This document shows, one piece after another, positions 19,036 to 39,710 of a DNA stretch of 64,000 nt (positions are counted from its first letter, which is position 1; every line of letters begins with the position of its first letter). A program made the translations under genes and the position numbers. Under the pieces are notes generated by a model. That model saw only the letters and a list, made by a program, of their open reading frames with translations. It searched no databases and had not been told where the DNA came from. The stretch comes from Eudromia elegans (taxonomy: Eukaryota; Chordata; Aves; Tinamiformes; Tinamidae), in NCBI GenBank assembly GCA_003342815.1, contig PTEX01000055.1:868001-932000 (forward strand), given 5' to 3'.

Positions 19036-19197
19036 TCAGTGGGCAACCGTTACGTTCTTGATCCAAGAAACAAAACTAGGAACATGGACAAAAACAGAAG
19101 GCTTTGATGGTTGGGTACAGTCTAGTCCCCAAGAGGTGACTCCATATTGGACAAATCTGTCTTCATCTTGGCAAACCAGGGGTCCTCCAACATCAGC
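19036..19197 (-). CDS. Copy B exon 19: catalytic Ser replaced by Val, stop
   Basis: 162 bases including TGA at 19036-19038. [37 protein letters not shown] and WIKNVTVAH. The GDSGGP motif reads ADVGGP; the Ser codon is GTT at 19189-19191. Length and the rest of the C-terminus match plasminogen. Confidence 0.94.
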   Translation of the reverse strand, partial: ADVGGPLVCQDEDRFVQYGVTSWGLDCTQPSKPSVFVHVPSFVSWIKNVTVAH

Positions 19198-37100: not shown

Positions 37101-39710
37101 CTGAGTGAGAAGCTACGCATTGAATTTATCGACAGTGGTCTAGCTGTCTAGTCCAGAGCTAGCTATTTCTTCCATATCTTCTCTTTTCAACTACATATTC
37201 CAGCAATTCACCTTCTCTGTGGTTTTTTTCCCTTCCAAAATTGGAGGTGTGTTTACTCAGAGCAAGAGTAAGAAAATGTCACTGATCAGATATTTAGTTA
37301 CCCACAATGACATAGCCTGTGATTCAAAAGAAATTACCTGCAATTAAAACTTCTTTCCTCTTCACATTTCTCTGCACATTCCCTTTCACTATTTGTGATA
37401 TAAGACTTTTTATTTCGAGTGAGTATCCAAACGCCATCTGTTCTTAAATAGTCATCTAGTATGTCTCCTTTCACTACAAAGAAAGAGAATAAAGAAAATA
37501 TTAAAAATGAGGGTGCAGCAGTTAAGATGACCTGTGACTTTAAATCCCATTTTCTATACAGCATTGACAAGTAAAGTCACCATTCATTTTGTGTGCTCCT
37601 GGGTAAATGGTGATAAAATCTGAGAAAATTTCTGTCTTCCAACACAATCACAGCTACATCACTGCAACACCTGATAGCAAGAAAAAATTGAGAGATGTAG
37701 AGAAGTAGCTCTGACCCCAGTTATGTGCGAGTTCGAAGCAGAGAAAAAGAAATGTGGACTACAGTAAGCGACAGTGGGTAGAGGGACTTTGTATCAAAAA
37801 ACCAGCAGACAGTGAAGTATGGGAAGTGATGTTAATGTTAAAGATCTGGAGAGATGTGCGCTCTGAGGATGTGAGATTGTGACCTCGCATGTGGAATGGA
37901 TAGTCTCTACACTTTTACTGGTCACAGGGTGGTTTGGTTGCCCTCAGAGGTCCTGCACTGGAGCAAGAAACGTCATCGTAAGATGACCACGTTATCTTTT
38001 ACAATGACCACTGTTACTTTTGCTACACCTACTAATAAATCTATCTGGTTGTATCATAATTTGAACTCATTGCAACATCATTTCAGCATGAGGCCTATGA
38101 AACAGGAGCATCCATGCAGCTCTCTACACCCACACAACACCTGAAAGTCATTTGAGCCACTAATGAAGATAAGACCATTAATAGCTTGAGGGGAATCTTC
38201 TCTGGCTGTTAGCAAACCTTGCTCAATGCTGTAAGAATATATATCTAAAGAAGTTCTTGACACAAGACCCTCCCTTATCCAATTTTACCTGTAGGCTGTA
38301 TTAGCAGCCCACCAATTTCTCCTGATTGACTCAGCAGACAAGTGTTCCCTCTCCTAGCCTCTTTCCCAAGTTATCTGGAGCCAATGCTACAGGGGACCAG
38401 ACTAGGAAAATGTTACTTTCCAAGTTTTCCTTGGGTCATCATAAACACTATCCAAAGGCTTCACTTTTGAACAGCACCCCGTTTCAGTGACCACAAGGAA
38501 TATTTATTTGTTTGGTTTATGAACACATGAGACTTTGGACATGCCTAAGACAAACTACATCACAGACTGGCAGAAGCTTAGTTAACAGAAAAGAAAATGT
38601 CATGTAGATTATCTTAAAATGTAGATTTTAATGTAAATTTACAAAAATGTAAATGAAAAAGAATAAAAAGAATTTCAAAATGGAACAGAGAATGAATTAT
38701 TCTAGCCAAAATTTATATAGACATACATATTTCTGTATTTATACATATGTAAATAAATCCCAGTCTTTATAAAGCCATATACGACACGTAAAAGTTAAAC
38801 AGAATAATCATATATATGTACGAAAGCCAATTTGTTCTTTTACATACATATCTCTTTGGAATTCTAATACAATCTAATCTTTTGGTTCTTCTAAACAAGA
38901 AGATATAAAATATGTTTTTAATGAAGTTTTGTGGTCCATTCCATTGGAGCAAGTGAGTTAGAGCTGGCATCAATGAACAAATATGAATAACTATACTGGC
39001 TGTGTTTTATAAGCCAATGATCATACAATGATACACCCTTCTTATTCTATGTCATATTATGTCACTGAGCCACTATAAAACCATACCGTGCTCATATGTT
39101 TGCAAAAGTATTTTTAAAAGCCTTTTAAGCATTGTGTTAAAGTACTAGCAGAATATATCAGAATGAAATCTAAAGTATACTACACAAGGAATATTTGTTT
39201 ATAGAGTTGTAGTGTGCTTAGAAACAATATATTTTCTTTAGAGGGTCTCTTATCTTCTTAGGGAATTGTAAAATGTAGTCTCAACTTTCCCATGGAAAAA
39301 CTGGTCTAGGTTATTGAAGACTAAATTTTCACCTACTGCCCCCAAGAAAATAAGAGGAAAATGTCTGGCAATAGAAAATGTGAAATTGATGGAATTGATG
39401 GAATATAAAGGAATTTTCTTTTTATTAAATTTTGTTTTAAAGACTGCATTTTAAATTTGCAAACTTCTACCATAATGTATAATGAATCGAAATCAGATTC
39501 AGAGGGCTTAGCAGCTACCCTTGCTGGCCAGCCCCCCTGACACCCAGTGGCATGCAGGTACATGGAGACACTTGGATTTTGGGACCTACCTTCATAATGT
39601 GGAGCTGGCAAGTGTTGGGTCCCTATCTCCACTACTCAATTGGAAGGTAAAAGACTCTTACCTGAGCCGAGCAGGAGCAGAAAGAGGAGGGCAGCTTTGC
39701 TAATCCCCAT
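19036..39710 (-). CDS. Plasminogen paralogue, copy B: five-kringle pseudoprotease
   Basis: Complete 19-exon gene of about 809 residues (human preproplasminogen has 810). Approximate residues: signal peptide 1-19, PAN 20-97, kringle 1 102-181, kringle 2 184-262, kringle 3 275-355, kringle 4 373-450, kringle 5 480-559, linker and trypsin-like domain 561-809. All introns are GT-AG and no stop interrupts the frame. The protease is predicted inactive: Gln621 replaces catalytic His, Val759 replaces catalytic Ser (ADVGGP for GDSGGP), Gly replaces the S1 Asp, and the activation bond is absent (CEPHSMC where plasminogen has CPGRVVGGC). Asp664 and the protease-fold cysteines remain. Kringles 1, 2, 4 and 5 keep acidic lysine-binding pairs. 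HGF, MST1 and apolipoprotein(a) are known kringle pseudoproteases. I infer a secreted liver protein acting as ligand or as competitor of plasminogen. A young pseudogene is less likely because frame, splice sites and cysteines are intact. Copy A lies 7 kb downstream, pseudogene C 3.6 kb upstream. Confidence 0.93.
19897..20042 (-). CDS. Copy B exon 18: protease domain, S1 Asp lost
   Basis: 146 bases: [33 protein letters not shown], ending TGHCE. Human plasminogen ends this exon DSCQ; here it is GHCE, so the Asp that sets trypsin-like specificity is Gly (GGT at 19906-19908). Confidence 0.92.
21483..21589 (-). CDS. Copy B exon 17: protease domain
   Basis: 107 bases: [20 protein letters not shown], then [13 protein letters not shown]. 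Typical trypsin-fold VCLP and WG segments; cysteines kept. Confidence 0.93.
22419..22461. repeat. Short direct repeat
   Basis: AGGTATATTATGCTAAA occurs at 22419-22435 and 22445-22461, one unit of 26 bases apart. Confidence 0.9.
23234..23374 (-). CDS. Copy B exon 16: catalytic Asp kept
   Basis: 141 bases: [20 protein letters not shown], ending [10 protein letters not shown]. The triad Asp (GAC at 23257-23259, Asp664) is present. Pseudogene C has an equal-length copy at 46347-46487. Confidence 0.93.
23890..23964 (-). CDS. Copy B exon 15: catalytic His replaced by Gln
   Basis: 75 bases: [18 protein letters not shown] then TAAQCLQQ. The codon at 23901-23903 is CAG (Gln621) in the TAAHC motif. 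Both cysteines around the active-site loop are kept. Confidence 0.94.
25023..25140 (-). CDS. Copy B exon 14: linker, lost activation site, start of protease domain
   Basis: 118 bases: [40 protein letters not shown]. The three cysteines of this region of plasminogen are kept, but the loop between the last two (25070-25090) is five residues, EPHSM, with no Arg or Lys, where human plasminogen has PGRVVGG. Plasminogen activators therefore have no bond to cut and there is no VVGG N-terminus to form. Confidence 0.93.
25141..27026 (-). other. Copy B intron 13
   Basis: About 1.9 kb, noncoding; no repeat or exon recognised. Confidence 0.7.
27027..27120 (-). CDS. Copy B exon 13: kringle 5, second half
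   Basis: 94 bases: [20 protein letters not shown], then [11 protein letters not shown]. Acidic pair kept; the usual Pro before Trp-Cys is Leu. Donor T|GTAATT; reading on would stop within four codons. Confidence 0.9.
27844..27992 (-). CDS. Copy B exon 12: kringle 5, first half
   Basis: 149 bases: [37 protein letters not shown], ending HPRAGLDKN at a phase-0 donor GTAAAC. Confidence 0.92.
28944..29134 (-). CDS. Copy B exon 11: kringle 4, second half, and linker
   Basis: 191 bases: [20 protein letters not shown], then [11 protein letters not shown], with Asp-Ala-Asp of the lysine site as in human kringle 4. A proline-rich linker follows ([16 protein letters not shown]), a likely flexible, possibly O-glycosylated spacer before kringle 5. 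Confidence 0.93.
29135..30737 (-). other. Copy B intron 10 with a CR1 remnant
   Basis: About 1.6 kb, AT-rich. Holds a short degraded CR1 tail (listed separately); nothing else recognised. Confidence 0.7.
29431..29511 (-). mobile_element. Degraded CR1 3' tail
   Basis: GACAGAATAGTTGTGGCTGG and CATCTAGTCTGACTCC resemble the reverse-strand CR1 tail. About 80 bases, old. Confidence 0.6.
30738..30903 (-). CDS. Copy B exon 10: kringle 4, first half
   Basis: 166 bases: linker [13 protein letters not shown], then [20 protein letters not shown], ending [14 protein letters not shown]. It closely follows human kringle 4 (SSMTPHRHQKTPENYPNA). Confidence 0.93.
31270..31290. repeat. Poly-A tract
   Basis: About 21 A in copy B intron 9, without a recognisable retroposon body. 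Confidence 0.85.
31555..31685 (-). CDS. Copy B exon 9: kringle 3, second half
   Basis: 131 bases: [19 protein letters not shown], then [19 protein letters not shown]. The second acidic residue is Glu followed by Lys; kringle 3 of human plasminogen is likewise the non-binding kringle. Confidence 0.92.
32575..32737 (-). CDS. Copy B exon 8: linker and kringle 3, first half
   Basis: 163 bases: linker [11 protein letters not shown], then [19 protein letters not shown], ending WIPDSYPCK. The YPCK cysteine of the kringle 2-3 bond is kept. Confidence 0.93.
33998..34116 (-). CDS. Copy B exon 7: kringle 2, second half
   Basis: 119 bases: [18 protein letters not shown], then [21 protein letters not shown] split over the motif; Asp-Gly-Asp at the lysine-binding position. 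Donor GTGAGT. Confidence 0.93.
34247..34367 (-). CDS. Copy B exon 6: kringle 2, first half
   Basis: 121 bases: [19 protein letters not shown], then [18 protein letters not shown]. The inter-kringle cysteine (ECMQC) is kept. Pseudogene C has a closely similar copy at 51387-51507. Confidence 0.93.
34874..35013 (-). CDS. Copy B exon 5: kringle 1, second half (donor ambiguous)
   Basis: [43 protein letters not shown]; the Asp-Met-Asp acidic pair of the lysine site is kept. The copy A donor GAAG|GTCAGG reads GAAA|GTCAGG here, so the last exon base is changed. A second donor, GAAG|GTATAT, lies 24 bases further (exon end 34850) and is also in frame; its use would add eight residues ending HSGE before kringle 2. 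The 140-base form matches copy A and gives numbering one residue off human plasminogen. Confidence 0.85.
35892..36006 (-). CDS. Copy B exon 4: kringle 1, first half
   Basis: 115 bases: [20 protein letters not shown], then [12 protein letters not shown]. Donor GTATGG. Confidence 0.93.
36792..36898 (-). CDS. Copy B exon 3: PAN domain, second half
   Basis: 107 bases: [19 protein letters not shown], ending TVFYEKK. Acceptor AACAG, donor GTATGT. Confidence 0.92.
37338..37473 (-). CDS. Copy B exon 2: PAN domain, first half
   Basis: 136 bases: [18 protein letters not shown] and ending [16 protein letters not shown]. Clearly diverged from copy A exon 2 ([18 protein letters not shown]) although exon 1 is identical. 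Confidence 0.92.
37474..39661 (-). other. Copy B intron 1
   Basis: About 2.2 kb of AT-rich noncoding sequence. Near exon 1 it aligns with the copy A intron with clear differences up to 39640. No transposon recognised. Confidence 0.75.
39662..39710 (-). CDS. Copy B exon 1: signal peptide
   Basis: ATG at 39710, [16 protein letters not shown], phase-1 donor. With exon 2 the peptide continues VKG|DILDDY; cleavage after VKG fits the small-residue rule at -3 and -1 and gives a 19-residue signal as in mammalian plasminogen. Identical in DNA to copy A exon 1. Confidence 0.93.

Follow-up and report, generated by a model that had tools for sequence, protein, structure and literature searches.

Plasminogen copies have been inactivated several times, giving rise to HGF and MST1, to apolipoprotein(a), to inactive copies in the coelacanth, and to PLG-2 of birds. 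PLG-2 is a second plasminogen gene (PLG) that has lost its catalytic activity; it was reported across birds by Chana-Munoz et al. 2019 (PMC6337849), who suggested that it might act as a growth-factor-like ligand. The subject of this analysis is a stretch of 64,000 nucleotides from the tinamou Eudromia elegans (contig PTEX01000055.1, positions 868,001 to 932,000; below, "the window"), which contains a plasminogen paralogue, copy B, beside plasminogen itself, copy A. There can be little doubt about the identity and constraint of copy B, which appears to be an old tandem plasminogen duplicate kept as a non-enzymatic kringle protein. Judged from its sequence, it is very probably the orthologue of avian PLG-2, since both are second PLG genes of a bird with the catalytic residues lost.

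A preliminary description of this DNA had announced another bird kringle pseudoprotease lying beside plasminogen. The derivation from plasminogen, the position adjoining copy A, and a frame under selection are all borne out, but an inactive second plasminogen gene of birds is already known and the central claim is not new. The data used here come from one genome, whose 944 Mb and 26 feather/beta-keratin matches agree with a bird, and any statement for birds generally rests on the published report (PMC6337849). The available text of that report mentions no gene conversion, third copy, or constraint by domain, and within an incomplete coverage of the literature no other paper on bird plasminogen paralogues was found to the point; no claim is made that these added details are unpublished. 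An egg-yolk proteome lists plasminogen (F1NWX6/Q7LZF3) with the two copies not distinguished (PMC8997978).

Copy B resembles plasminogen in having a PAN domain, five kringles, a protease domain, 19 exons in the same phases, and 48 cysteines, and it is 66% identical to copy A and 54% identical to human PLG (chain 4a5t). It differs from plasminogen in lacking the catalytic His and Ser, the S1 Asp, Gly193, Gly226, and the activation bond. Like copy B, apolipoprotein(a), the product of primate LPA, is plasminogen-derived, inactive, and encoded near PLG. However, LPA has an expanded kringle IV array and has lost kringles I-III, whereas copy B keeps PAN and K1-K5, unexpanded. Apolipoprotein(a) is joined to the apoB lipoprotein via a free cysteine; the 48 cysteines of copy B appear to be paired, which would leave none spare for such a bond. 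Human LPA also shares its 5' untranslated region (5'UTR) with PLG and has pseudogenes around it, a notable parallel to the locus of copy B (PMC6067813).

HGF and MST1 are kringle pseudoproteases whose protease domain is inactive, as it is in copy B. Unlike copy B, which has five kringles and belongs to a separate lineage, HGF has four kringles and activates Met only once it is cleaved at the Arg494-Val495 bond (PMC5017023), which copy B lacks. The possibility that copy B is itself HGF or MST1 was rejected: it is 38.6% identical to HGF; a four-row tree unites copies A and B (support 87/92) and places HGF on a long branch; and HGF is present as a separate gene in the same genome, on contig C1. 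The inactive PLG copies of the coelacanth lack catalytic activity as copy B does, but they have one kringle and no PAN (PMC6337849).

The predicted splice model of copy B is that of a complete gene, running on the minus strand from 39710 to 19036 of the window, with 19 exons, 2430 nt, and 809 residues. The frame opens with an ATG at 39710 and closes with a TGA ending at 19036, the lone stop codon. GT donors and AG acceptors are present at 18/18 introns each, and so the preliminary description of an intact 19-exon frame with plasminogen-fold cysteines was correct. Compared with copy A, phase is the same for 19/19 exons and length for 17/19, exon 11 of copy B being 24 nt longer and exon 14 being 3 nt shorter. 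Copy B, copy A, and human plasminogen over its aligned part have 48 cysteines each; 47 of the columns are common to all three, and the final pair is offset by one residue. Pfam finds five kringle stretches together with PAN and trypsin in A and B alike, and the kringles of copy B are K1-K5 in plasminogen order. PAN is encoded by exons 2 (37338..37473) and 3 (36792..36898), which, like all exons of copy B, lie on the minus strand. A processed pseudogene is ruled out by the introns. An artefact of assembly or annotation was also rejected, given that A and B lie about 28 kb apart on one contig and are divergent throughout, with most introns unalignable.

The protease domain has been disarmed at several points, which are given here in chymotrypsin numbering. 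In exon 14 (25023..25140), where copy A has the activation bond within C-A-Q-R-I-V-A-G-C, copy B has C-E-P-H-S-M-C (25070-25090). Exon 15 (23890..23964) carries Gln at the His57 position (codon CAG, 23901-23903), exon 16 (23234..23374) keeps Asp102, and exon 17 occupies 21483..21589. Gly replaces the S1 residue Asp189 in exon 18 (19897..20042; codon GGT, 19906-19908), and exon 19 (19036..19197) contains Ala at Gly193, Val at Ser195 (codon GTT, 19189-19191), Ser at Gly226, and the stop. The codons for Gln, Gly, and Val, like the missing activation bond, had been pointed out in the preliminary description, and all four places are in frame in the spliced model. Alignment with copy A and human plasminogen thus gives H57Q, D189G, Q192E, G193A, S195V, and G226S, with Asp102, Asp194, and Ser214 kept. 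Out of the His57-Asp102-Ser195 triad, Asp189, and the Arg-Val/Ile activation bond, only Asp102 is retained. A protein of this composition should have no enzyme activity and should not be convertible to plasmin; a protease of altered specificity was rejected because His57 and Ser195 are both lost.

The preliminary description took four independent losses in an intact frame as an argument for selection. This argument is weak, since the first loss, once fixed, frees the others, and of 159 protease sites identical in copy A and human plasminogen, 55 are altered in copy B anyway. A better argument is the absence of stops at a dS of about 0.8, together with a dN/dS well below 1. In 1000 runs of a neutral simulation that began with the coding sequence of copy A and allowed substitutions only, 0.4 changes per site produced a mean of 24.2 in-frame stops and a minimum of 12, compared with 0 in copy B; at 0.05 changes per site, only 0.6% of the runs were free of stops. 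The claim that selection has held the frame is therefore upheld. Between A and B, dS is 0.79 over 801 codons (0.78 in the kringles, 1.02 in the protease). The pairwise dN/dS is 0.30 overall, 0.22 in the kringles (bootstrap 0.16-0.29), and 0.36 in the protease (0.25-0.49).

Constraint is uneven along the protein. When changes are polarised with human plasminogen and dS is taken as equal on the two branches, the B branch has a dN/dS of 0.30 (0.21-0.42) in the kringles and 0.58 (0.38-0.91) in the protease, and the A branch has 0.14 in both. Individual kringles on the B branch range from 0.10 to 0.50, the lowest being kringle 1 at 0.10 (0.00-0.33). Relative-rate comparisons with human plasminogen as the reference give 55 B-only versus 13 A-only changes among 249 protease sites (chi-square 25.9), 42 versus 19 among 453 kringle sites (chi-square 8.7), and 2 versus 3 among the 85 sites of kringle 1 (chi-square 0.2). 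Against solved human chains, kringles 1-3 score 433.5 bits for A and 405.9 bits for B (1ki0), and the protease scores 388.7 bits for A and 260.6 bits for B (e.g. 1ddj). Together, these values indicate that purifying selection has acted on copy B during most of its history, with kringle 1 the most constrained part and PAN and the protease the least.

The lysine-binding sites of the kringles are largely kept. The residues compared were those at kringle positions 55, 57, 62, 64, 71, and 72. Kringle 1 of copy B (exons 4 and 5; 35892..36006 and 34874..35013) has D-D-W-Y-R-F and so retains the plasminogen residues, the Phe at position 72 being common to A and B where human plasminogen has Tyr. In kringle 1, Asp55/57 and Arg35/71 hold lysine analogues (PMC9736318). 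Kringle 2 (exons 6 and 7; 34247..34367 and 33998..34116) has D-D-W-F-R-W, with Asp57 in place of the Glu found in copy A and human plasminogen, and kringle 5 (exons 12 and 13; 27844..27992 and 27027..27120) has D-D-W-F-K-W, with Lys71 in place of Ala in copy A and Leu in human plasminogen. Kringle 3 (exons 8 and 9; 32575..32737 and 31555..31685) has Glu57, as in copy A. Kringle 4 is encoded by exon 10 (30738..30903) and by exon 11 (28944..29134), which also includes a linker. Kringles 1, 2, and 5 of copy B are thus probably still able to grip lysines.

A and B are also connected by their promoters. A 197-bp tract reaching from the proximal promoter through the 5'UTR and exon 1 into the beginning of intron 1 (39641..39837, minus strand) is identical to 12115-11919 of copy A, and the only two matches to it found genome-wide are those in copies A and B. 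Exon 1 (39662..39710), which holds the start codon and signal peptide, contributes 49 coding bases to this tract and is identical to exon 1 of copy A. Identity falls to about 80% over the next 50-100 bp and then to background, and the other introns of A and B are unalignable apart from the one between exons 6 and 7. At a background identity of 81%, a run of 197 identical bp has a chance near 1e-18. Such identity amid an otherwise old divergence (dS about 0.8) points to recent gene conversion. Strong promoter constraint would also preserve it, but recent conversion is favoured because coding third positions and the 5'UTR are identical too. With exon 1 included, a runs test finds a longest run of 22 codons (P about 0.02); in the coding sequence past exon 1, the longest run is 17 same-residue codons, which is not significant (P about 0.12), and conversion is claimed for the exon 1 block alone. 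A and B would thus have the same type of promoter and of signal peptide, and the shared block predicts that they are expressed together.

The simplest role for copy B would be that of a competitor of plasminogen on fibrin and receptors, produced where plasminogen is. Copy B would be secreted, made in the liver alongside plasminogen, and would circulate; its kringles 1, 2, and 5 would bind C-terminal lysines on fibrin and on cell-surface receptors; and, not being convertible to plasmin, it would compete with plasminogen and so damp or localise fibrinolysis. In this way it may arrive by a separate route at the function proposed for apolipoprotein(a) in primates. This appears to be the best explanation of the locus, with a probability of roughly 0.45, a figure set by the mechanism, which is its uncertain part. 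A more detailed version, rather speculative, is a bird brake on fibrinolysis that resembles lipoprotein(a) without the lipoprotein: a full-length decoy, its expression locked to that of plasminogen by repeated conversion of promoter and signal peptide, in which disarming of the protease went together with a strengthening of the kringle 2 lysine site (Glu57 to Asp). Should copy B prove to be a full-length decoy under constraint, it would be a natural experiment on how an inactive plasminogen acts in blood, a question that is hard to settle for apolipoprotein(a) because that protein is highly variable and is carried on a lipoprotein.

Several observations weigh against a competitor of plasminogen. 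The lysine site of kringle 4 is probably weakened in copy B, which has Leu71 where copy A and human plasminogen have Arg, and both A and B carry Asn at position 35 of kringle 1, where human plasminogen has Arg. The dN/dS of the protease on the B branch is still below 1, with about 1% of bootstraps reaching 1; this domain is therefore more than mere ballast, and a competitor acting through its kringles alone would have no use for it. For PAN (0.73) and K5 (0.50), the B-branch intervals do reach 1 (in 19% and 3% of resamples, respectively), and all of the B-branch values depend on the assumption of an even split of dS between A and B. Constraint on the kringles is equally expected of a kringle-bound ligand. 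Furthermore, H57Q, D189G, and Q192E give copy B the Gln57, Gly189, and Glu192 of human HGF.

These last points lead to the main rival, a growth-factor-like ligand that would act on a receptor in the manner of HGF and MST1, its pseudoprotease providing the docking face. The preliminary description had offered competitor and ligand side by side. The ligand is already proposed in print (PMC6337849), and it would account for the partly constrained protease, its retained cysteines, and the three residues common to copy B and HGF even though copy B groups with copy A. Yet because of that grouping, and because HGF lies on another contig, the three residues represent either parallel changes or chance; chance is possible given that 55/159 conserved protease sites have changed in copy B. 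The cleavage that HGF needs for Met (PMC5017023) would also be denied to copy B, which has neither the Arg nor the Val/Ile of that bond; the protease is the faster-evolving half of the protein; and copy B is closer to plasminogen than to HGF. A ligand is thus somewhat unlikely, and the competitor fits better because copy B lacks the activation bond and retains its lysine sites for the most part.

Bacteria recruit plasminogen via lysine sites, and copy B might instead be a host-microbe partner or decoy that occupies bacterial plasminogen receptors or the sites they use, or that positions plasminogen as a cofactor. The kept lysine sites in a protein that presumably cannot become plasmin would suit such a role, but the kringles lack the sign of diversifying selection expected in an arms race (B-branch dN/dS 0.10-0.50) and nothing further in the data supports it, leaving it improbable. 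Least probable of all is a dying gene, one that lost its usefulness only recently, is now under relaxed constraint, and is intact by luck. The accelerated protease, the high dN/dS of PAN, and the decay of a sister copy (copy C, below) would agree with this; the absence of internal stops, the 36/36 intact splice dinucleotides, the kept cysteines, the apparently recent homogenisation of the promoter, and the report of PLG-2 across birds (PMC6337849) all argue against it.

Copy A occupies 1..11988 of the window on the minus strand, where the spliced model and alignment place exons 1 to 8 and a portion of exon 9. It starts at 11988, continues beyond the left edge of the window as far as window coordinate -10175, and has its catalytic residues and activation bond intact; on this evidence it is the plasminogen gene. 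Upstream of copy B, at 43270..51520 on the same strand, lies copy C, a third, decayed plasminogen copy. Pieces of its exons 6, 7, 10, 12, 16, 17, 18, and 19 are recognizable, and a further kringle fragment, near 50.9 kb, contains a stop. Stops also interrupt the pieces of exons 10, 16, and 19, and the exon 7 piece has frameshifts. The exon 6-intron-exon 7 block of copy C (51149-51519) is 82% identical to copy B (33986-34379), above the other exons, suggesting exchange between C and B too. Copy C may serve as a rough yardstick for an unconstrained copy at this locus.

A synteny search for an AGPAT4-type acyltransferase, with exons sought singly, gave 7 matches, none on contig C491. Between copies A and B, an open frame at 13051-13491 resembles the terminal part of a CR1-type LINE reverse transcriptase, and a related sequence is present in inverted orientation at about 17.6-18.1 kb.

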